Source: Methylophilaceae bacterium (GTDB lineage: Bacteria > Pseudomonadota > Gammaproteobacteria > Burkholderiales > Methylophilaceae). From it: a stretch of 64,000 bases of DNA. The stretch lies in the NCBI GenBank assembly GCA_028355955.1, contig JAOMTQ010000001.1:171705-235704 (forward strand), written 5' to 3'. The notes under the pieces are model-generated. The model saw nothing but the letters and a program-made list of their open reading frames with translations, made no database searches and was not told the DNA's origin. Both the position numbers and the translations under genes were made by a program. Positions 5,172 through 64,000 of this stretch are shown one piece after another; positions within the stretch are counted from its first letter, which is position 1; every line of letters starts with the position of its first letter.

Positions 5172-5526
5172 TGGTGGAGCTGGGGGGAATCGAACCCCCG
5201 TCCGCAAATCCTCTGCAGACAGTTCTACATACTTAGCTATGTTGTTTATGTTTAACTTTTACTTCACCAACAAGCAAGCAAATGTAAAAGCGAGCTACCT
5301 TAAGTTTAAGAAATTACTAAGTAACCCAATAATTTCCGAGTCTCTCTTTATGACGCTGTAACCTGAGCGAGTGACCCATCAGGACAGCGTTTAGCTGGAA
5401 TTAAGCAGCTAAAGCGTAGTTATCGTCATTTGCGATTACTGTTTTTCTAGTTTATTAACGAGGTACCTAGAAGCCTCGGTATGCACTGATCTGTTTTGTA
5501 ACCCACGTCGAAACCGGGTCAGCCCC
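5172..5526 (-). ncRNA. ssrA: tmRNA (ssrA)
   Basis: The 5' end GGGGCTGACCCGGTTTCGACG and 3' end GGGTTCGATTCCCCCCAGCTCCACCA form the tRNA-like domain, with encoded CCA at 5174-5172; length is about 355 nt. The internal reading frame, read from the resume codon GCA, is ANDDNYALAA followed by TAA. It differs from the E. coli tag ANDENYALAA only by Asp for Glu. tmRNA rescues stalled ribosomes and tags products for ClpXP with the SmpB partner, whose gene lies 18 nt upstream on the same strand. One-piece (unpermuted) type. ORF-track entry 5436-5660 is a shadow. Confidence 0.97.
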
Positions 5527-6867: not shown

Positions 6868-8328
6868 ATGCGTCTACCCAATAAAGCTTTAACATTCGAT
6901 GATGTTCTTCTTGTTCCCAATCATTCTAGCGTGCTCCCAAAAGACGTTTCATTAGAAACAAAATTAACTAAAAAAATTAGCCTAAATATTCCAGTCATTT
7001 CTGCAGCGATGGATACAGTGACAGAAGCCAACATGGCAATTGCCCTTGCAGAACAGGGTGGTATGGGCATTATCCATAAAAACTTAACGCCTCAGCGACA
7101 AGCAAATCGTGTCGATAAGGTAAAACGATTTGAGTCAGGCGTTGTAAGTGACCCCATAACGATTGACCCTAACATGTCAGTTGACGAGGTCATGCAAATT
7201 ACTCGTAAGAATAAAATATCAGGACTTCCTGTAGTCGTGAAAGATAAAATCGTTGGTATCGTTACAAATCGTGATTTACGATTTGAAACAAACCTTACCC
7301 AACCGATTAAAAATGTAATGACACCGAGAGATCGGCTTGTGACTGTAAAAGAAGGGGCAAGTAAAGAAGAGATTACAAAACTACTTCACCAACACCGAAT
7401 TGAACGCTTACTTGTAATTAATGACGAAGATACACTGACAGGATTGATTACAGTCAAGGATATTCAAAAATCAACAGATCACCCGTTTGCTTGTAAGGAT
7501 GAGCATGGAAGATTAAGAGTCGGTGCAGCCATTGGTGTCGCGAATGATACTGAATTACGAACAGAACTTCTAGTTGAGGCTGGAGTAGATGTTCTAATTG
7601 TCGATACAGCACATGGGCACTCTGAGGGTGTTTTAAATCGTATTAAATGGATTAAGAAAAATTATCCTAAGGTTGACATCATTGGTGGGAATATTGCCAC
7701 CGCTGAGGCTGCAATAGCGATGGTAGATCATGGGGCTGATAGCGTAAAAGTTGGTATAGGACCGGGGTCAATATGTACAACACGAATTGTTGCAGGTGTT
7801 GGAGTACCTCAAATCACTGCAATTAATGAAGTTTATAAAGTATTAAAAAAGAAAAATATCCCCTTTATTGCTGATGGCGGTATCAGGTTCTCAGGTGATG
7901 TAGCCAAAGCTATTGCTGCTGGAGCAAGCTCAGTAATGTTAGGTAGTATGTTTGCAGGAACTGAGGAGGCGCCGGGTGAAGTGGAATTATTTCAAGGTAG
8001 GTCTTATAAATCATATCGTGGCATGGGCTCCATTGGAGCAATGAAAAAAGGTTCCAGTGATCGTTACTTTCAAGATGGTGAAAGCAATACAGATAAATTA
8101 GTCCCTGAAGGTATTGAAGGACGAGTTCCGTTCAAAGGAACAGTAGTCAATGTCCTTCATCAGTTAATGGGTGGGCTCCGTGCATCAATGGGATACGTCG
8201 GTGTGGATACAATTCCTAATATGCATAAAAATGCAAAATTTATTGAAATTACGAATGCCGGGATTAAAGAATCACACGTTCATGATGTTCAGATCACAAA
8301 AGAAGCGCCTAATTATCGAGTGGACTAA
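6868..8328 (+). CDS. guaB: IMP dehydrogenase
   Basis: 486 aa from ATG 6868. The (beta/alpha)8 barrel is interrupted by two CBS domains (about residues 90-205: [20 protein letters not shown] and [19 protein letters not shown]). Catalytic Cys is in [13 protein letters not shown]; the NAD/IMP site includes [13 protein letters not shown] and the flap [10 protein letters not shown]. It oxidises IMP to XMP, the committed step to GMP, in the cytoplasm. guaA follows after 40 nt and performs the next step, so they form an operon. Confidence 0.97.
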
Positions 8329-56612: not shown

Positions 56613-56647
56613 AAAAAACCCTCATCATTTTTTGATGGGGGTTTTTT
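56613..56647. terminator. Bidirectional Rho-independent terminator
   Basis: AAAAAACCCTCATCA pairs with TGATGGGGGTTTTTT (one G-U) around a T loop. It serves the PQQ dehydrogenase on the plus strand and overlaps the stop of the convergent minus-strand gene. Confidence 0.9.
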
Positions 56648-56942
56648 ACATTTGACTATTTACAAAACATTTAAAGGTACCATTTAGTATATTTTTCTTA
56701 GCTCCCTCTTTACTTAAATGATTCATTTTAATGCTTATTATTTCGAAACGAGTTCCGCAAATCTCATTAACTTTATTTTGGAAAATATCTCTTAATTTTT
56801 TTTCATTAGATTTATCACCACCTATAATTAAAAAATTATATTTATCTGATCCTTGAGGTGATAATTTTGTTTCAAAGCTACCAACCTTATTGGTTAAAAC
56901 CAAAGTTAATATTAACAATAAAATCTGACTCATTTTTTTCAT
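56646..56942 (-). CDS. Small secreted protein
   Basis: 98 aa. Signal peptide MKKMSQILLLILTLVLTNKVG, mature part about 77 residues with two cysteines (NEICGTRFEI, FKCFVNS) that may pair. Not recognised. Its stop lies inside the bidirectional terminator hairpin. First of a run of tiny exported proteins on this strand. Confidence 0.6.
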   Translation of the reverse strand: MKKMSQILLLILTLVLTNKVGSFETKLSPQGSDKYNFLIIGGDKSNEKKLRDIFQNKVNEICGTRFEIISIKMNHLSKEGAKKNILNGTFKCFVNSQM

Positions 56943-57013
56943 ATGATTAATTAAAATAGAAGAAATAAATTGGAGTATTACGCTAAATTTAGCAGTATTT
57001 TTATGCTTACTTA

Positions 57014-57424
57014 TTACTTACACTTACCTATAAATTTTGATGAAGTGGTAAAGCTACTTCCGTCACAAGCCCCTATTCTTTTAGAGGTGGATTCAATCAT
57101 ACCGGAAGAGCGATTCAGTTTAACGCTTAATAAAGCTGTATCGCATTCATTGCTAACCTGAGTGGTTTCTACAACGACCTGAGCATCGTTTTTGACATAT
57201 TTTGACGATCCTTTGATGGCACCGTAATCGAATATTTTGTTTTTGTAGGTTACAGAATCTATAACCATAGAATCGTCTTTGACTTGAAGTGATCGTGAAG
57301 CTTTAGAAGTATCTTCTAGCACATCATTTCTAAAAGTGCTTACCTCTCCTTGACACACTAATTTAAAATCTTCTGCTAAAGCAAAGCTTGGAACCGTTAA
57401 TGCGATTAATAATAATTTTTTCAT
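57014..57424 (-). CDS. Small periplasmic protein
   Basis: 136 aa. Signal peptide MKKLLLIALTVPSFALA, then FKLVCQGEVST, NECDTALLSVKLNRSSGMIES, GACDGSSFT and IGKCK: four cysteines and a beta-strand-rich pattern, reading like a small beta-barrel or lipocalin-like fold. Family not recognised. Own spacer upstream. Confidence 0.65.
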   Translation of the reverse strand: MKKLLLIALTVPSFALAEDFKLVCQGEVSTFRNDVLEDTSKASRSLQVKDDSMVIDSVTYKNKIFDYGAIKGSSKYVKNDAQVVVETTQVSNECDTALLSVKLNRSSGMIESTSKRIGACDGSSFTTSSKFIGKCK

Positions 57425-57533
57425 AACAACATTCTACCTGATATTATCGATTTAGCTCTGAGCATTCATCTAAAGAAATATCCTTTTCACAAACCAAACA
57501 TTGATGGACAGAACCTCGACAACAGACTTAAGA

Positions 57534-57821
57534 TTATTGATTACTTTTTGCTGACCAATGCAAACTGCATTTATATTCACATATCACCATTGATTGTTGG
57601 CTTTGTTGTTTACATTTTGTTTGTGCAGTATCTATACCCGTATAAGGCTCACAAAGTTTAATCATTTTATCTATCGGGTAATCTTCTTTACTAGAGTCAT
57701 ACATCAATCTTCCTTCATAGGCATTTGACTTACTAGGCTCATAAAAATCTAAGCCTGTGTCATCTGCCATGACACAGGTGGTAATTGCAATAATAAAACA
57801 CATGAGTATTAAATATTTCAT
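57534..57821 (-). CDS. Small secreted cysteine-rich protein
   Basis: 95 aa with signal peptide (LILMCFIIAITTCVMA). Mature part has LCEPYTG, TKCKQQSQ and VICEYKCSLHW: four cysteines packed in the last 40 residues. Function unknown. Confidence 0.6.
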   Translation of the reverse strand: MKYLILMCFIIAITTCVMADDTGLDFYEPSKSNAYEGRLMYDSSKEDYPIDKMIKLCEPYTGIDTAQTKCKQQSQQSMVICEYKCSLHWSAKSNQ

Positions 57822-57962
57822 TAGAATTTTAAGCCTTTTTATTGATTATATCTAATCTAAAGAGTCAAACCAAACTGCGAAGGCATGCCAATCAATTAAT
57901 GAGTAAATTCCAAACGGAACACCAAAAAAGGTTGCGGGCCTATTTAATAATTTTTCACTTCT

Positions 57963-58229
57963 TTATTCAACTTTCTTTGCTTTTTTTTGTAACTTTTTAA
58001 TCATATTATTATCTCCACAGATATAATTTTCATATTTTGTTTGTGCGCAAGTTTCGTAATTAGGCAACATTAAGCAGGTATTTAAATAACCTTCATAAGC
58101 TTCTTTATCATAAAAACATGAAACGGATGGCTTGACATATTCAATCTTTAAGCCTTGGTCATTAGTAAAAACTTCTTTACTCTGACCTAATATTGGGATT
58201 ATTAACAATAATAGAAACAGTTTTTTCAT
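57963..58229 (-). CDS. Small secreted protein
   Basis: 88 aa. Signal peptide MKKLFLLLLIIPILGQSKE is almost the same as those at 58230 and 59999. Four cysteines (SCFYDKEAYEGY, TCLML, TCAQTK, ICGDN), basic C-terminus KKLQKKAKKVE. Its ATG abuts the upstream stop (TAAATG), making one operon with the lipoprotein gene. The same frame stays protein-like for 37 codons after its stop (see findings). Confidence 0.6.
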   Translation of the reverse strand: MKKLFLLLLIIPILGQSKEVFTNDQGLKIEYVKPSVSCFYDKEAYEGYLNTCLMLPNYETCAQTKYENYICGDNNMIKKLQKKAKKVE

Positions 58230-58640
58230 TTAATCACCTAAAATACATCTTCCTTGCTCAGGCGCGTTTACAAATGTCTTAAGGGTTACTGAGTACTTTA
58301 TTCGTACATTTGGATTGCTGGATTCCCATAAACAACCTATATCTTCATCCCCATAAATTAAGTAATAGTACATAGAAAGCCATTTATTATTTGACATAAA
58401 ATGACAACCGTATGGCTTTGTATGCCAATTTGAAATTCTTTGTTTGTTAGAATCCTCTTCGCCCTCAAGTTGCCAATACATGTCTGCTAAGCATTCATCT
58501 CTTGTCTTATAGGATGTAAACCAAAATTCTTGTTTTTGAGTCTCTTTATGCGTTGCATAACTTCCCCAACTATTATTTGTTTGATGGTCAGAACAAGAAA
58601 TTAGTGGCACTAATAAAAACAATAAAAAAAGTTTTTTCAT
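58230..58640 (-). CDS. Small lipoprotein
   Basis: 136 aa. Lipobox PLISC places the mature Cys at residue 16. The mature part has EFWFTSYKTRDECLADMYWQ, KPYGCHFMSNNK, DIGCLWES and GRCILGD. No known family. Its ATG abuts the upstream TGA, and the stop abuts the next ATG, so three genes (58641, 58230, 57963) form a tightly coupled operon behind the duplicated intergenic element. Confidence 0.7.
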   Translation of the reverse strand: MKKLFLLFLLVPLISCSDHQTNNSWGSYATHKETQKQEFWFTSYKTRDECLADMYWQLEGEEDSNKQRISNWHTKPYGCHFMSNNKWLSMYYYLIYGDEDIGCLWESSNPNVRIKYSVTLKTFVNAPEQGRCILGD

Positions 58641-58916
58641 TCAGTTTATTTTAACTTTGCAAGCATTTCTAATAGCAGCTGTAAGATTGTTTTCAGCAGT
58701 ATCTATTATTTTCTCCAAGACTCTTACATTCTTATCGATGATATTTAAATTCTCTTGCATTCTATCAATCTTTACATTGCTTTTATTTAGCTCTACTACG
58801 ACATCCCAATTATTGGCATATACCTTACTTATAATTACATTACTTAAATTTAAGAACAAACCTAATGCAATAACTCCTAGCAATAATTTTGTTGTTTTAT
58901 CTAGTTTTAATTCCAT
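58641..58916 (-). CDS. Single-pass membrane protein with coiled coil
   Basis: 91 aa. TM helix about residues 10-30 (LLLGVIALGLFLNLSNVII), then a heptad-like segment VELNKSNVKIDRMQENLNIIDKNVRVLEKIIDTAENNL. Strong SD (AAGGAG, 7 nt before ATG). First gene of a three-gene operon whose leader is element A of the duplicated intergenic repeat. Family unknown. Confidence 0.65.
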   Translation of the reverse strand: MELKLDKTTKLLLGVIALGLFLNLSNVIISKVYANNWDVVVELNKSNVKIDRMQENLNIIDKNVRVLEKIIDTAENNLTAAIRNACKVKIN

Positions 58917-58940
58917 ATTATTTCTCCTTATGATGGGAGT

Positions 58941-59050
58941 GTACTACCCCTAAATATCAATCTAACCTATTGTTTTAATGACACTTTAATTAATGTTTAA
59001 TGTCTATCAATTAGTTTAATTTAGAGTTAGATTGTAGTCAAGTGAGATGT
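58941..59050. repeat. Duplicated intergenic element, copy A
   Basis: The core 58963-59050 aligns without gaps to 61013-61100 at about 70 of 88 positions by eye, including TAACCTATTGTTTTA and TAGTCAAGTG. A CCCC-bearing hairpin segment adjoins the core in both copies. Here it sits directly before the RBS of the 58916 operon on the minus strand, so it may be a promoter plus structured leader. The rest of the 58917-59172 spacer shows nothing else. Confidence 0.7.
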
Positions 59051-59172
59051 TTTTGTCCTCATAATGAGGCGATGATTTAACGCTTTTCTTTTTTGTCAAA
59101 GGTTACAAATAATAAAGAAGATCTATTGTTAAATGTTAAAATCAGCACTCAATAATAACTAAGTAAAACAAT

Positions 59173-59538
59173 ATGCGCTTACTAAGATGGTTTGTAGGAA
59201 AAGTAATACTATTTATAAATGCAATAACACTCCCAAAGCCTATAAAGAGAGATAATATTATTCAACATAAACTGGATAAGAAAACAAAAGACTTAACTAT
59301 CTATCAATTTGAGGCCTGTCCCTTTTGCGTAAAAGTCAGAAGATTTATAAGGAAAAATAATCTTAAAATCAACCTAAGGGATGCAAAAAATAATGAGATT
59401 TTTAAATCTGAATTAATCATTGATGGTGGTAAGCATAAGGTGCCATGCTTAAAAATAGAAAAAACAAATGCTAAAACTGAATGGCTGTATGAATCAAATG
59501 AGATTATTCTTTTTTTAAAAAAAATTATTGCATCATAG
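59173..59538 (+). CDS. Membrane-anchored glutaredoxin-like protein
   Basis: 121 aa. N-terminal hydrophobic anchor (LLRWFVGKVILFINAITL), then a glutaredoxin/GST-N thioredoxin fold: LTIYQFEACPFCVKVRRFI with the CPFC active site, KVPCLKIEKT (cis-Pro) and WLYESNEIILFL. Likely reduces disulfides or glutathione adducts near the inner membrane. Divergent from the 58916 operon across element A. Confidence 0.85.
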   Translation: MRLLRWFVGKVILFINAITLPKPIKRDNIIQHKLDKKTKDLTIYQFEACPFCVKVRRFIRKNNLKINLRDAKNNEIFKSELIIDGGKHKVPCLKIEKTNAKTEWLYESNEIILFLKKIIAS

Positions 59539-59558
59539 ATAGTCAATTATTTTAGCAT

Positions 59559-59933
59559 CTAAGGGTGTAGGTAAAAAACCTTGTTCATTACCTGCCACTT
59601 TCCATCTACTTTAAGCAGATTAAGAAAATCAGTAAAACGCGCACCCTTCCAATTATCTAACTCTATTCTCACATTTGCTGTCGACCCTACGATATCTATT
59701 TTTGAAATAACATAAACTAAATCTGTAGCCGCACCATTACCATCATGCCAATCATATAAACTTTGGATTGGGCCTGCAATTAAATCTGGTCCCACATAGC
59801 CATACCATGTAGCTAAGTCATGAAATGTGGGTTTCATTTCAGCACTTATGCCTGAAATTGCACCTTTAAGATAATTGGATGCGAGTAAATCAGTTATCGT
59901 TTCATAGTCATTAAAGTCTGAGTTTGTTGTCAT
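59559..59933 (-). CDS. NTF2-like/lumazine-binding-like protein
   Basis: 124 aa from ATG 59933 (MTTNSDFNDYETITDLLASN), with GGAG 6 nt upstream; the tracked TTG start is less likely. Fold shown by YLKGAISGISAEMKPTFHDLA, VRIELDNWKGARFTDFLNLLKVDGKWQVMNKVFYLHP, the SnoaL/lumazine-binding-like (NTF2) pattern. Ligand or activity unknown. Confidence 0.75.
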   Translation of the reverse strand: MTTNSDFNDYETITDLLASNYLKGAISGISAEMKPTFHDLATWYGYVGPDLIAGPIQSLYDWHDGNGAATDLVYVISKIDIVGSTANVRIELDNWKGARFTDFLNLLKVDGKWQVMNKVFYLHP

Positions 59934-59998
59934 ATTAATCTCCAATATTAATTAATTAGTTTACTCCCAGACAATAGAGTGGAAATATTTTCTTTATA

Positions 59999-60445
59999 TT
60001 AAATAACAGGCTTTACTTTAATCTTACAGGTTGATAAATCACTTTTTATATCGCCATGAATCATCTCATCATAAGTATTAATGTTATTTACTAACCCTTC
60101 TTTGTAGATTAATGCCCATTTTTTTACTTTTTCTTGAGATGCTTTTTTTTCAACTTTAATGCAATCAAAATTAATGCAGCTCGTTTTATAAATATCTGAC
60201 GAGACCCTAAAAAAATTTGTCGCATTCTTTGATAAAACTTTATAATCCTCCTGTGATTCAGCTCCATTTTTATAAAAATTAGAAATCTGCTCAAATAGAA
60301 CTCCGCACCTCAATGTTATATATGAAAGAGATACTCTATCTGATGTGTTCCAAGATGGATTTTTAGACATATAGTCATCAAGGGTAGCTGATAATGCAAA
60401 TATAACATTCGGTATTAAGAGTAAAAGAAGGAATAGTTTTTTCAT
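59999..60445 (-). CDS. Small secreted protein
   Basis: 148 aa. Signal peptide MKKLFLLLLLIPNVIFALS. Mature part mostly helical with four cysteines: TLRCGVLFEQIS, SCINFDCIK, LSTCKIK. Not recognised. Shares its signal-peptide sequence with the 57963 and 58230 products, suggesting duplication or module reuse. Confidence 0.65.
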   Translation of the reverse strand: MKKLFLLLLLIPNVIFALSATLDDYMSKNPSWNTSDRVSLSYITLRCGVLFEQISNFYKNGAESQEDYKVLSKNATNFFRVSSDIYKTSCINFDCIKVEKKASQEKVKKWALIYKEGLVNNINTYDEMIHGDIKSDLSTCKIKVKPVI

Positions 60446-60482
60446 AAAATCAGTTTACTTTCCAGACAATTAAGTAGACAAA

Positions 60483-60563
60483 TTAAGTTGGTATTAGCCA
60501 TGGGACTATGCCCAGGATTATTAAAACAAGAGCCAACACTAATAATAGTTTATTAAGTTTAAT
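60483..60563 (-). CDS. Possible 26-aa membrane peptide with ATT start
   Basis: Reading from ATT 60563: KLNKLLLVLALVLIILGIVP and WLIPT, a single hydrophobic helix, stop TAA at 60485-60483. GAGGG lies 5 nt upstream, within the end of the preceding mini-gene. ATT starts are rare, so this is tentative. It looks like the third gene of the 60826 mini-operon. Confidence 0.3.
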   Translation of the reverse strand: MKLNKLLLVLALVLIILGIVPWLIPT

Positions 60564-60564
60564 T

Positions 60565-60681
60565 TCAACCCTCTAATTCTTTCTTATTTGATTGTTTACT
60601 TAAGAAAGCGATAAGACATATCAGTATAAATATGGCAATCAATATAACAAAGACTGATATATATATCATTGACGATTCCAT
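60565..60681 (-). CDS. 38-aa single-pass membrane peptide
   Basis: ATG 60681, TGA at 60567-60565. MESSMIYISVFVILIAIFIL then ICLIAFLSKQSNKKELEG: one membrane helix with a short charged tail. Size and tail are loosely like CcoS-type peptides, but the match is too weak to name it. Starts 1 nt after the stop of the 47-aa gene. Confidence 0.55.
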   Translation of the reverse strand: MESSMIYISVFVILIAIFILICLIAFLSKQSNKKELEG

Positions 60682-60682
60682 T

Positions 60683-60826
60683 CTAGCCTTTATCAACTTC
60701 TTCGATTTTTTTGATGTTTGAATTTGCTGAAATCATTTTTTCACCATCCCATCTTTGTCCACACCAACAGATACCTTCAGCATTTATTATACAAGTACCA
60801 CTTCCACAACAACGTTTATCTTCCAT
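60683..60826 (-). CDS. 47-aa cysteine-rich mini-protein
   Basis: ATG 60826 with AAGGA upstream, TAG at 60685-60683. MEDKRCCGSGTCIINAEGIC followed by WCGQRWDGEKM and a charged tail. Five cysteines in the pattern CC-x4-C-x7-C-x-C suggest metal or cluster binding. The WCGQ.WDGEKM segment looks like a conserved proteobacterial mini-protein, but I cannot name it. Confidence 0.65.
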   Translation of the reverse strand: MEDKRCCGSGTCIINAEGICWCGQRWDGEKMISANSNIKKIEEVDKG

Positions 60827-60892
60827 AACGTATTTCCTTGGTAATTAATAACAAACATTATTGTCGCATATCATTAGAATCTCAGCCATAAC

Positions 60893-60946
60893 CTAAGTAC
60901 CACAGCTAACAGATATCATTGTTATAATAATTAATATGAATTTCAT
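60893..60946 (-). CDS. Possible 17-aa lipopeptide
   Basis: ATG 60946: MKFILIIITMISVSCGT then stop. It is a signal peptide with a lipobox-like SVSC and only two residues after the Cys. No good SD. Might be a micro-lipoprotein, a leader peptide for the mini-genes downstream, or chance. Confidence 0.25.
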   Translation of the reverse strand: MKFILIIITMISVSCGT

Positions 60947-60990
60947 TAGCTATTCTAGATTGTTCCGACCCTCCCCTTAGGAGGGGGATG

Positions 60991-61100
60991 CTCTATCCCC
61001 TGATAACTACCCTAACCTATTGTTTTAGTTACACTTTAATCAATGGTTAATGTGTACTAATCAGTGTATTTTAGCTTGGAAATTTAGTCAAGTGGGATGT
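60991..61100. repeat. Duplicated intergenic element, copy B
   Basis: Core 61013-61100 matches copy A (58963-59050) over 88 ungapped positions at about 80% identity by eye. The adjoining hairpin is better formed here: GGGGAT, GCTCT, ATCCCC, and next to it CCCTCC pairs with GGAGGG. It precedes the minus-strand mini-gene operon (start 60826), like copy A before 58916. It also lies downstream of the barrel/secreted operon, where the hairpins might act as its terminator. Confidence 0.7.
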
Positions 61101-61142
61101 AATTATGCCCAAATTTGGAGTAGTTTTTTTTAAGAACTTTTT

Positions 61143-62042
61143 TTATTCAACCGTGATAAATGCTGAGAAGGGACCACTACCAAATGCGATCACATCATAA
61201 GTATTAGCAGATCCTTCATCACTCATATGCGTACTTGTTGCCTGATTAACCCCAAAACTAACAACAAATGAAGATGAAGTGCTTGTAACCTCGGCGGCGG
61301 TATTTAAAGTCTGCTTACCAAATATCCTATCAGCTGTTTTAACCGCATTAACAAGACGGTCATTTGAATCTGTTACTAAATAAGCCGTAAGATTTCCGCT
61401 TTCTACACTAACTGGACCATAGTTGTAAGTATCAGTATCAAAGTGATCAAGGATTTCTGTGTATGTTGCAGGGGCTGCATCTTCTTCATCGCCGCAATTT
61501 GCAAAAGTAGTTGGGTTTGCAGGAGTGCCGCTCCAATCAGAATTGTGTTCTGTACCACTCGTTGTCCAACAAAAGTTTCCACTTGTCGCCGTATTATACC
61601 TGTGCATGGTATTTGTAAATTGTTTAGTGACCGTAATACCAAAAGAATTGCCAAGAACCATATAGGCATGGGTATATATTCCATTTGTTGGTCGAGTAAC
61701 ATCTGTTAAAGTCAGTTCAGAGCCTGCCGCCAAATTGATCGTTTGACCAGATGGGCTATTAATAACAGTTGAGCATGTATCCACTGCATAAGCGCTACTT
61801 GTAGTTGGTGCAGTTGGTTCTGAGGTGCATAAACCCATCTCATAAATTGTCACCTGATACCCATCAGGGGCAAAGGCACAATCTCCAATGGCATTTTCAT
61901 TACCTTGGTATGTAATCACGCCTGCCTCACTTTCAATAGCATTTTCTGAACTTAGGGACCCTTCACAGAATCCGTCAGCATAGCTACTAAAAGAAAACCC
62001 TAGGGATATTAGAAATAAAATAATGATACTGTTAAATTTCAT
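61143..62042 (-). CDS. Secreted six-cysteine-family protein, putative split passenger (copy 2b)
   Basis: 299 aa. Signal peptide LFLISLGFSFSSYADG. Six cysteines in the family order: GFCEG, DCAFAPDGY, MGLCTSEP, DTCSTV, FCWTTS, ANCGDE. C-terminus AFGSGPFSAFITVE is a predicted strand ending at the last residue. Closely related over its full length to the 63067 product and more distantly to 46133. ATG abuts the barrel stop (TAAATG), so translation is coupled. No known domain. Confidence 0.8.
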   Translation of the reverse strand: MKFNSIIILFLISLGFSFSSYADGFCEGSLSSENAIESEAGVITYQGNENAIGDCAFAPDGYQVTIYEMGLCTSEPTAPTTSSAYAVDTCSTVINSPSGQTINLAAGSELTLTDVTRPTNGIYTHAYMVLGNSFGITVTKQFTNTMHRYNTATSGNFCWTTSGTEHNSDWSGTPANPTTFANCGDEEDAAPATYTEILDHFDTDTYNYGPVSVESGNLTAYLVTDSNDRLVNAVKTADRIFGKQTLNTAAEVTSTSSSFVVSFGVNQATSTHMSDEGSANTYDVIAFGSGPFSAFITVE

Positions 62043-63047
62043 TTAAACCCCTTTTGCCTTCGCAGTGAAACCGCTACCTACCTGCTTCACAATAATATTT
62101 TTACGTCTAACTTTTTCGTATCTTCTATCTTCCATGCTTTCTAACTTATATGCGGTATCGTTAAACCATTGAATTTGTTGTTTTGGTTTATTACTGAGTG
62201 CTTCGGTAATATTGTAAGAGGCTATGAAGTAATTGGAATCTTTATCATCATCTTTGAAGGTTCGACCTGCTTGAATCTCAAGTCCAGGTAAAATCGGGAC
62301 ATATGCTCTCAATTGTGCATCATTGCCCTTGGCATCCTTACCACCTTCAACCGCATCCCACTTATAACGTTTTACAAATACAGTCGCCCAGTTTATATAG
62401 GGAAGCGGTAAACCTGCTTCGATATCCCAACCATCGAGTGCACGTTCTTCTAGTCCATTTTTACCTGTCTTCCACTTAGTAGTCGCTTGATACATATTGG
62501 CGTTAATTTCACCGACGGTCGACCTGGCTTCTAAACCAACACTGTATCTTCCGTGGTCATAAGGGAACTCATGGTCATAAAAAGCATTTACACCGAGCAT
62601 TAAGGTATTATCAAATTCCATACGACGGTAACCTAAACCGACATTCAATGTGGTTCGGTTGTCTGTATAGAATGCACTGACTTGGGTAAATAACGTATTC
62701 TCAATATCTTTTTGATCAGAGAGTGGTGCCACAACCAAGATCCCTGTTGTTGGTTTGGAACCTTCTTTTGTTTCGAAGCTTATCTCCACTGTGGGGAAAT
62801 ATTGCTCTAAAAAACTTTTTGTAAAGCCTACCCCTTGATCCGTTGCGGCTTCAATCACCTGACTCTGTACCCCTTCTAAATCACCTGCGGCTACCATTTT
62901 GGTGAGATCAATAAAGGCAGCGTGATCTTGATCATCTGTTGTTGATTCAGCTGCGTTAGATTTCCAGTCAGCAAAGACAGCTGTGGTAGCAAGAAAAAGC
63001 GGAGTTAGTAAGAGTAGTTTTGAATTTAAATTCTTCACAACTTTCAT
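62043..63047 (-). CDS. Passenger-less inverse autotransporter beta-barrel (copy 2)
   Basis: 334 aa. Same build as the 45106 product: signal peptide (LTPLFLATTAVFA), DLTKMVAAGDLEG helix, IAT_beta barrel with FTQVSAFYTDNRTTLNVGLGYRR and TLMLGVNAFYDHEFPYDHGR, post-barrel linker SMEDRRYEKVRRKNIIVKQ, and a 12-residue tail. The N-terminal two thirds are nearly identical to copy 1; loops and C-terminal strands differ (GGKDAKGNDAQL). Genes for secreted proteins lie on both sides: 19 nt upstream and 0 nt downstream. Confidence 0.88.
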   Translation of the reverse strand: MKVVKNLNSKLLLLTPLFLATTAVFADWKSNAAESTTDDQDHAAFIDLTKMVAAGDLEGVQSQVIEAATDQGVGFTKSFLEQYFPTVEISFETKEGSKPTTGILVVAPLSDQKDIENTLFTQVSAFYTDNRTTLNVGLGYRRMEFDNTLMLGVNAFYDHEFPYDHGRYSVGLEARSTVGEINANMYQATTKWKTGKNGLEERALDGWDIEAGLPLPYINWATVFVKRYKWDAVEGGKDAKGNDAQLRAYVPILPGLEIQAGRTFKDDDKDSNYFIASYNITEALSNKPKQQIQWFNDTAYKLESMEDRRYEKVRRKNIIVKQVGSGFTAKAKGV

Positions 63048-63066
63048 TATATATGTTTTTAGCGCT

Positions 63067-63960
63067 TTACTCTACGTTCATAAATAAAGAAAATGGGCCG
63101 CTACCTATTGCAAAAACTTGATACTCATTGGCTCGACCGGAGTCTTGAAACATCCATATAGTTGCCGCTTGATTGACATCAAAACTAATGGTAAATAAAG
63201 TTGATGAGGAATTCACTTCAACTGCCGTTGTAAAAGCTTGCATTCCAAAAACTCTATCCGCTGTGTTACTTCTATTCACCAGTAATTCATTAGCGTCAGT
63301 AATTAGGTCTAAAGATAATGTTCCATTTCCAACATCGAATGCCGCCATCGCAAAGGTAACCATATCACCATCAAATACGTCTAATTTTTCATAATAGGTT
63401 TCAGCTGAACCATCTGCCCCTCCGCATTGAACTAGGATGGATGGGTTTGACCAAGCACCAGAATTTTGTACAGAATTATCATTATTGCCGTCCAATGTCC
63501 AACAATAATTGCCACTCTCTCCATTTAGATAAGTGTGCATAGTATTTGTAAACTGCTTTTTTGCTTTGAAGCCAAAATTATTACTCATCAAAATGTAACC
63601 GTAATTATAGGTTCCATTCGGAGGTTTGCTAGTATCATTAAGCACTAGCTCTGAACCTGCTGCTATATTTACTACCTGTCCATTTGGGCTAACAATCACC
63701 TCTTCACAAGAACTTACATCGTATACTGTGGAAAAAGTTGGCCTTGTTGGTTCTTGCGTACACAATCCTATTTTGTAAATAGTAACTATATATTCGTCAG
63801 GCGCAAATGAACAATTAGCCATAGTCGGATTGCCTGTAAATGTTATAACGCCATTATCATCTTCACTTGCTCCAGTTGTATCACAATATCCTAAAGCACT
63901 AGCGTTGGTTATAAAACTTAACCCCATTAATATTATAAATATCTTAATAATTTTCTTCAT
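63067..63960 (-). CDS. Secreted six-cysteine-family protein, putative split passenger (copy 2a)
   Basis: 297 aa. Signal peptide IIKIFIILMGLSFITNASA. Family cysteines: GYCDTT, NCSFAPDEY, IGLCTQEP, SSCEEV, YCWTLDG, VQCGGADG; C-terminus AIGSGPFSLFMNVE. Shared blocks with 61143 include FTNTMHxY, AAGSEL, ADRVFG/ADRIFG and VNQA. First gene of the three-gene operon at this edge of the window; its promoter would lie at about 63961-64000 or beyond. Confidence 0.8.
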   Translation of the reverse strand: MKKIIKIFIILMGLSFITNASALGYCDTTGASEDDNGVITFTGNPTMANCSFAPDEYIVTIYKIGLCTQEPTRPTFSTVYDVSSCEEVIVSPNGQVVNIAAGSELVLNDTSKPPNGTYNYGYILMSNNFGFKAKKQFTNTMHTYLNGESGNYCWTLDGNNDNSVQNSGAWSNPSILVQCGGADGSAETYYEKLDVFDGDMVTFAMAAFDVGNGTLSLDLITDANELLVNRSNTADRVFGMQAFTTAVEVNSSSTLFTISFDVNQAATIWMFQDSGRANEYQVFAIGSGPFSLFMNVE

Positions 63961-64000
63961 TTTTAAATAACACTTAAAAAAATTTCCTATTTTTACATAA

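Follow-up and report, generated by a model that had tools for sequence, protein, structure and literature searches.

Duplicated arms beside tRNA-Arg(CCT) fragments in a Methylophilaceae bacterium: probable promoter-bearing attachment scars of serially integrated elements

Introduction

Cargo elements that target tRNA genes in streamlined aquatic bacteria and carry a tyrosine recombinase include the tycheposons, which were described in Prochlorococcus. Tycheposons have also been reported in Methylophilaceae, at tRNA-Met (PMC10872708). The same study (Layoun et al. 2024, PMC10872708) describes fGI-1 and fGI-2. The former is bounded by tRNA-Ser(gga) and tRNA-Arg(cct), has a tmRNA in its middle and is treated as a replacement island flanked by tRNA; the latter is additive, and partial tRNA-Lys repeats stand ahead of it. 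The main text of the study makes no mention of promoters or of a serial tRNA-Arg array. Outside this family, tRNA-targeted islands with displaced tDNA fragments have been defined for Islander (PMC4383910), and promoters at the ends of ICEclc, ICEKp1 and ICEEc1 have been found by experiment to drive int in the excised circle (PMC13023037).

Here we analyzed a 64,000-nt stretch of DNA from a Methylophilaceae bacterium (the window), which shows the same tmRNA/tRNA-Arg(cct) context as fGI-1. The hotspot is already published; the literature searched yielded no description of serial, promoter-bearing scars at tRNA-Arg(CCT). In function, the system resembles a tRNA island array equipped with an end promoter of the ICEclc type. 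Like an Islander-type island, the complete relative G019 has an intact tRNA at one end, same-orientation 3′ fragments beyond it and a tyrosine integrase by the tRNA, but here integrase-free cassettes are set apart by numerous partial fragments inside the island, and the same arm with its putative promoter stands before each full fragment. As in ICEclc, ICEKp1 and ICEEc1, an outward putative promoter precedes the attachment core at the end opposite int, and int lies close to the tRNA and points away from it, whereas most units here are without int, the promoter would read into the next cassette, and no conjugation genes were recognized among the proteins tested. Tycheposons show a general likeness in the tRNA targeting, the cargo, the presence of a tyrosine recombinase and the streamlined aquatic hosts but use another tRNA.

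Results and Discussion

Duplicated Element and Its Surroundings

An initial annotation had placed a gapless duplication of about 80% identity at 58963-59050 and 61013-61100, and 70 of these 88 positions are identical, far above shuffled sequences (mean 27.8 ± 4.1, maximum 49, n = 20,000). The 88 nt are not the limit of the repeat, however, as the ungapped match runs to 115 nt at 74% identity (58947-59061 against 60997-61111) and a gapped BLAST alignment within the window spans ~190 nt (E = 3e-23). The hairpin that had been set on the gene side, next to the element, is present in both copies but falls inside this homology. On the minus strand each copy reads TTGACT, 17 nt, TAAACT or TACACT, ~60 nt, the G-rich/C-rich hairpin and then small genes (Table 1). 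The copies do lie just 5′ of small exported or membrane genes on that strand, as first noted, and the downstream genes vary among copies.

Table 1. Features of the window discussed in the text (positions are those of the window).
Feature	Position	Strand	Evidence or remark
tmRNA, landmark within fGI-1	5172..5526	-	Rfam; PMC10872708
91-aa gene, in the direction of the copy 1 putative promoter; first of the distal small-gene cluster (56646-58916)	58641..58916	-
Copy 1, whole probable attachment-site scar (promoter arm, leader, decayed tRNA-Arg core)	58924..59044	-	model match 58925-59044, 80.8 bits
Copy 1, decayed tRNA-Arg(CCT) D/anticodon-arm fragment	58924..58951	-	alignment of copies
Copy 1, imperfect palindrome just past the predicted transcript start; possible integrase arm-binding site	58980..59004	-
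Copy 1, putative promoter	59013..59041	-	-35 TTGACT (59036-59041), 17-nt spacer, -10 TAAACT (59013-59018)
Cassette between scars: glutaredoxin-like, lumazine-binding-like and small exported proteins; without integrase	59062..60965	.
Candidate 17-codon ORF (MKFILIIITMISVSCGT), directly downstream of copy 2	60893..60946	-
Copy 2, whole probable attachment-site scar (promoter arm, leader, tRNA-Arg core)	60966..61094	-	model match 60973-61094, 116.4 bits
Copy 2, tRNA-Arg(CCT) fragment, D loop to variable region; core site	60966..61002	-	37 nt exact, 100%
Copy 2, imperfect palindrome TACACATTAACCATTGATTAAAGTGTA past the predicted start	61030..61056	-
Copy 2, putative promoter	61063..61091	-	-35 TTGACT (61086-61091), 17-nt spacer, -10 TACACT (61063-61068)
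Next cassette, truncated by the contig end: inverse autotransporter beta-domain protein amid two related ~300-aa exported proteins	61112..64000	-	PF11924

The 91-aa gene has a homologue, 81% identical, at the same place in G019. Its protein had no Pfam match, and the protein downstream of copy 1 had none in a scan of IMG/VR. Parts of the cassette between the scars are common to contig C42 of the relative G017 (89-94%) and to the G019 cassette between copies e and f. The window ends where contig C1 ends (position 64000). At 61143-63960 an inverse-autotransporter beta-domain protein (62043-63047) is flanked by a related pair of ~300-aa exported proteins; all three have relatives that are grouped in G015 (L082:9848-11708), near the tRNA-Arg(CCT) genes of that genome. 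Separately, neighbouring small genes have a near-identical signal-peptide start (MKKLFLLLLLIPN... and variants) with unrelated mature proteins, both in the window (57963-58640, 59999-60445) and elsewhere (L007:232-1248, L031:15118-16563), and these gene starts also surface as DNA repeat family D2.

The Hairpin and tRNA-Arg(CCT)

Judged by its sequence, the G-rich/C-rich hairpin is the D/anticodon arm of tRNA-Arg(CCT). A search of the window's own genome found a third copy on contig C6 (88% identity) that continues directly into CAGGGGATAGAGCATCCCCCTCCTAAGGGGAGGGTCGCACGTTCGAATCGTGCCGAGGGCACCA, the 3′ 64 nt of tRNA-Arg(CCT), and this fragment is identical to the matching part of the intact tRNA-Arg(CCT) called by ARAGORN in G019. 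The first 37 nt of the fragment are retained unchanged in window copy 2 and in decayed form in copy 1. A further apparent copy is truncated by the end of C6. The copies share tRNA nucleotides 12 to ~43 and then diverge, the exceptions being those with a whole 3′ end; no arm holds a whole tRNA, as the 5′ acceptor strand is absent and ARAGORN finds none. Displaced 3′ fragments that reach CCA lie downstream of the intact gene and in its orientation in four relatives (G019, G003, G016 and G008), and the window's own genome has a displaced 3′ fragment on C6, with no intact tRNA-Arg(CCT) found in its 78.6% complete assembly. In G008 the 5′ half of the tRNA is broken directly after CCCCCTCCTAA, within the anticodon loop.

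Two genomes have tRNA-Arg(CCT) genes that are possibly element-borne. In G008 an intact gene lies ~1.3 kb past the interrupted 5′ half (L079:5755-5829), and G015 has two genes 2.8 kb apart (L082:4547-4622 and 7453-7526).

Serial Array and Cassette Junctions

The relative G019 is complete (1.336 Mb, one contig) and has an island of 43 kb. Its intact tRNA-Arg(CCT) (1264903-1264978, ARAGORN) is followed 125 nt downstream by a phage-type tyrosine integrase (PF00589) that starts at 1265104 and reads away from the tRNA. A gene-rich stretch of 23 kb separates the integrase from the first of copies a to f (1288855, 1291649, 1298153, 1305108, 1306687 and 1308038), which all have one orientation, and past copy f are the same genes as those following window copy 1. 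By eye, the a-b cassette encodes exported proteins and the b-c cassette an RND efflux pump; c-d combines an RND-like exporter with a short-chain dehydrogenase and a MarR-type regulator, and d-e has a second MarR-type regulator together with a globin-like protein. No capsid or conjugation gene was recognizable in the large first element of G019 (ten proteins tested per library).

The boundary of a shared cassette falls at the core. G019 1305200-1306815 and positions 1-1616 of contig C60 in G023 are 99.4% identical; the match starts at the G023 contig start and stops at AAGGGGA, the end of the tRNA core, after which the cassettes differ. The start of contig CAJXQA010000060.1 (L037:1-36) resembles a Nextera adapter (TCGTCGGCAGCGTCAGATGTGTATAAGAGACAG), and whatever lies left of the arm on that contig is probably artefactual. 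Over 6.8 kb of distal sequence the window and G019 share 86.7% identity, with synteny starting at the copy 1 arm (59044). Since copy 1 sits at the distal edge and is the most decayed, we infer that it is the oldest scar of the island. These junctions, together with the break in the anticodon loop of G008, are the pattern expected from serial integration by a tyrosine integrase that crosses over in or near the anticodon loop.

Integrase and Distribution

Three PF00589 proteins were found in G019, the integrase beside the tRNA and two high-scoring kinds that are present in every genome searched and are taken to be XerC and XerD, meaning the cassettes are without an integrase of the PF00589 family. 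Arms and integrase occur together only in G019. The relative G011 has an integrase 45% identical to that of G019, adjoining its tRNA-Arg(CCT), and no arm; the window's own assembly (78.6% complete) yielded no close relative of the G019 integrase. Two other genomes (G003 and G016) have arms and no tyrosine recombinase beyond the two found in all genomes, so their integrase would have been supplied in trans or lost.

BLAST matches to the element were found in 6 of 61 genomes, all within the window's genus. For a wider search we built a model from 16 copies, kept sequence-only since no base pairs were supported, and ran it on 150 family genomes. It returned 21 strong copies (above 60 bits), all in the same genus. 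Among the weaker matches (34 bits or less) are intact tRNA-Arg(CCT) genes whose places were known; the top match outside the genus is likewise an intact tRNA-Arg(CCT) gene. Scanning GTDB with the arm pattern gave seven stretches, six from Methylophilaceae-type MAGs and one from Vibrio owensii; the latter (NZ_JPRD01000011.1, L072:5810-5833) is a single exact 24-nt match that may be chance. No free element with the exact arm patterns of either lineage (see below) was found in IMG/VR. A parallel tRNA-Lys array was looked for with the 20-mer quoted in PMC10872708, which had no match in seven genomes of the window's genus.

The window's own genome also has, near recQ and flanked by two arm copies, a gene for a 1679-aa protein (L007:2784-7823) that by eye joins RecQ-like and UvrD-like helicases, possibly a defence gene.

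A Probable Promoter in the Arm

The initial claim of a shared promoter is well supported, with -35 box, -10 box and 17-nt spacer kept in 16 copies from two lineages and nine genomes. The pattern TTGACW-N17-TAHACT is present in 16 of 16 full arms from these two diverged lineages, and the spacer length is constant, with much of its sequence variable. When combined with the leader start, the pattern had 16 matches in 31 genomes, all of them in arms; the reversed control had zero matches in the same genomes. In lineage 2 (G003, G006, G008 and G016) the boxes read TTGACA-N17-TATACT, which is near-consensus and fits sigma-70 more closely than those of lineage 1; their distance to the tRNA fragment is about the same. 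Three copies with short arms (G019_d, G017_c and G017_d) have a TATACT box at nearly the same place and a different region upstream. It is likely, then, that the arm carries an active sigma-70-type promoter.

The next ORF follows the promoter direction in 11 of 15 arms; in the remaining four the gene faced by the arm is on the opposite strand. Within the copy 1 tRNA remnant, AAGGAG (58924-58929) resembles a Shine-Dalgarno sequence and stands 7 nt ahead of the following ATG. The AAGGGG of the anticodon stem has become AAGGAG at copy 1, G019_f and G017_d, each 7 nt before the ATG of homologous genes, and at copy 1 the tRNA remnant has apparently been re-used as a ribosome-binding site. From the orientation and this re-use, we consider it reasonably probable that the arm promoter drives the genes of the neighbouring cassette.

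Alternative Explanations

The initial annotation had proposed that the two small-protein operons share a promoter followed by a structured RNA leader (riboregulator), or that a small RNA is embedded in the element and controls them, and had named further copies and compensatory changes as a check. A probable promoter is present, the conserved block begins at about the expected transcript start, and one leader of lineage 2 folds better than its shuffled versions (z -2.36), but the main hairpin is the anticodon arm of a tRNA, neither window copy outdoes its shuffles in folding (z -0.86 and -0.39), and the palindrome past the predicted start has compensatory change in 0 of 9 pairs across the 16 copies, with 500 of 500 shuffles pairing at least as many cells. 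Furthermore, an Rfam gathering scan of the window returned the tmRNA only, with no family at the copies, and the genes downstream differ from copy to copy. More copies were indeed found, but as tRNA attachment sites, in all probability, and not as regulatory RNAs. A weaker form of the same idea is that the copy 1 remnant was kept since its CUCC can pair with the Shine-Dalgarno GGAG; by eye a short C-rich/GGAG pairing is still possible at copy 1, G019_f and G017_d. We regard control by a structured leader or small RNA as very unlikely.

Promoter and tRNA fragment follow each other in transcriptional order, as they would in a decayed duplicate of the tRNA-Arg(CCT) gene that kept its own promoter and had nothing to do with the end of a mobile element. 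This is scarcely credible given the missing 5′ acceptor strand and the lack of any ARAGORN call in the arms, the upstream regions of the intact tRNA-Arg(CCT) genes, which are unlike the arm and contain no arm in the genomes examined, and the shared-cassette junction at the core. A less remote explanation accepts the attachment site and makes the arm an integrase-binding P arm only, in which TTGACT and TACACT are integrase or accessory sites resembling a promoter by chance. Sites of that kind would be expected where the boxes sit, namely in an attachment arm, and ACTAA recurs by eye in the arm and after the core of some copies. The spacing of exactly 17 nt in every full arm despite a variable spacer, and the closer sigma-70 match of lineage 2, speak against it, and we think it improbable.

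Proposed Mechanism

The core's tRNA identity, the serial array, the cassette boundary at the core, the adjacency of integrase and tRNA in the complete relative and the architecture of the promoter can all be read from the DNA itself. From three copies in the window's own genome, taken with those of the relatives, we are highly confident that the two window copies are attachment-site scars of mobile elements integrated serially at tRNA-Arg(CCT), and promoter-bearing scars of this kind are, as a whole, our strongly favoured explanation. Mobile units would integrate one after another at the tRNA-Arg(CCT) of this Methylophilaceae bacterium, each leaving a scar. The 88 nt would be the outer end of the element (its P arm), consisting of an outward-facing sigma-70 promoter and a conserved segment of ~55 nt that probably binds the integrase or accessory proteins. 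The core would be the D/anticodon arm of the tRNA, and crossover by the tyrosine integrase would take place within the anticodon loop or beside it. Within the array, the arm promoter would transcribe the neighbouring cassette, with the decayed tRNA stem acting as ribosome-binding site at copy 1.

In the excised circle, the promoter of the far end would be placed upstream of the integrase gene and could drive it, by analogy with ICEclc and ICEKp1. The geometry in G019 is of this kind, with the outward promoter at the end opposite int and oriented to read int after circularization; we give even weight to this role being real and to its absence.

The locus also resembles an integron, where cassettes are stacked at one site and expressed from an attachment-linked promoter, but here the integrase is of the phage type, a tRNA core replaces attI/attC, whole operons serve as cassettes and every scar has a putative promoter. 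An integron proper was rejected, since the integrase scored 24.7 bits against the integron integrase model TIGR02249 (cut-off 265), and Pfam and PHROGs identify it as a phage integrase. Integron-like accretion is a tentative reading that we consider rather unlikely. Under it, a phage-type integrase would act in trans to stack cassettes without an integrase of their own at tRNA-Arg(CCT), and each cassette would bring, in its attachment arm, an outward promoter for its neighbour. The cargo stacked in this way would include the RND pump, a Tad-like pilus cluster, metal-resistance-like genes and lipoproteins.

Conclusions

The reading of these copies as probable attachment scars carries a warning that tRNA attachment scars can be mistaken for riboregulators. 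The promoter arm and tRNA-Arg anticodon core together would provide a nearly base-precise junction signature for whole operons stacked at one tRNA gene, in the setting of streamlined aquatic methylotrophs with tiny genomes. With this signature one can delimit cassettes, follow them from species to species and test whether the attachment site drives their expression. If integron-like accretion were true, every insertion would supply expression to its neighbour.
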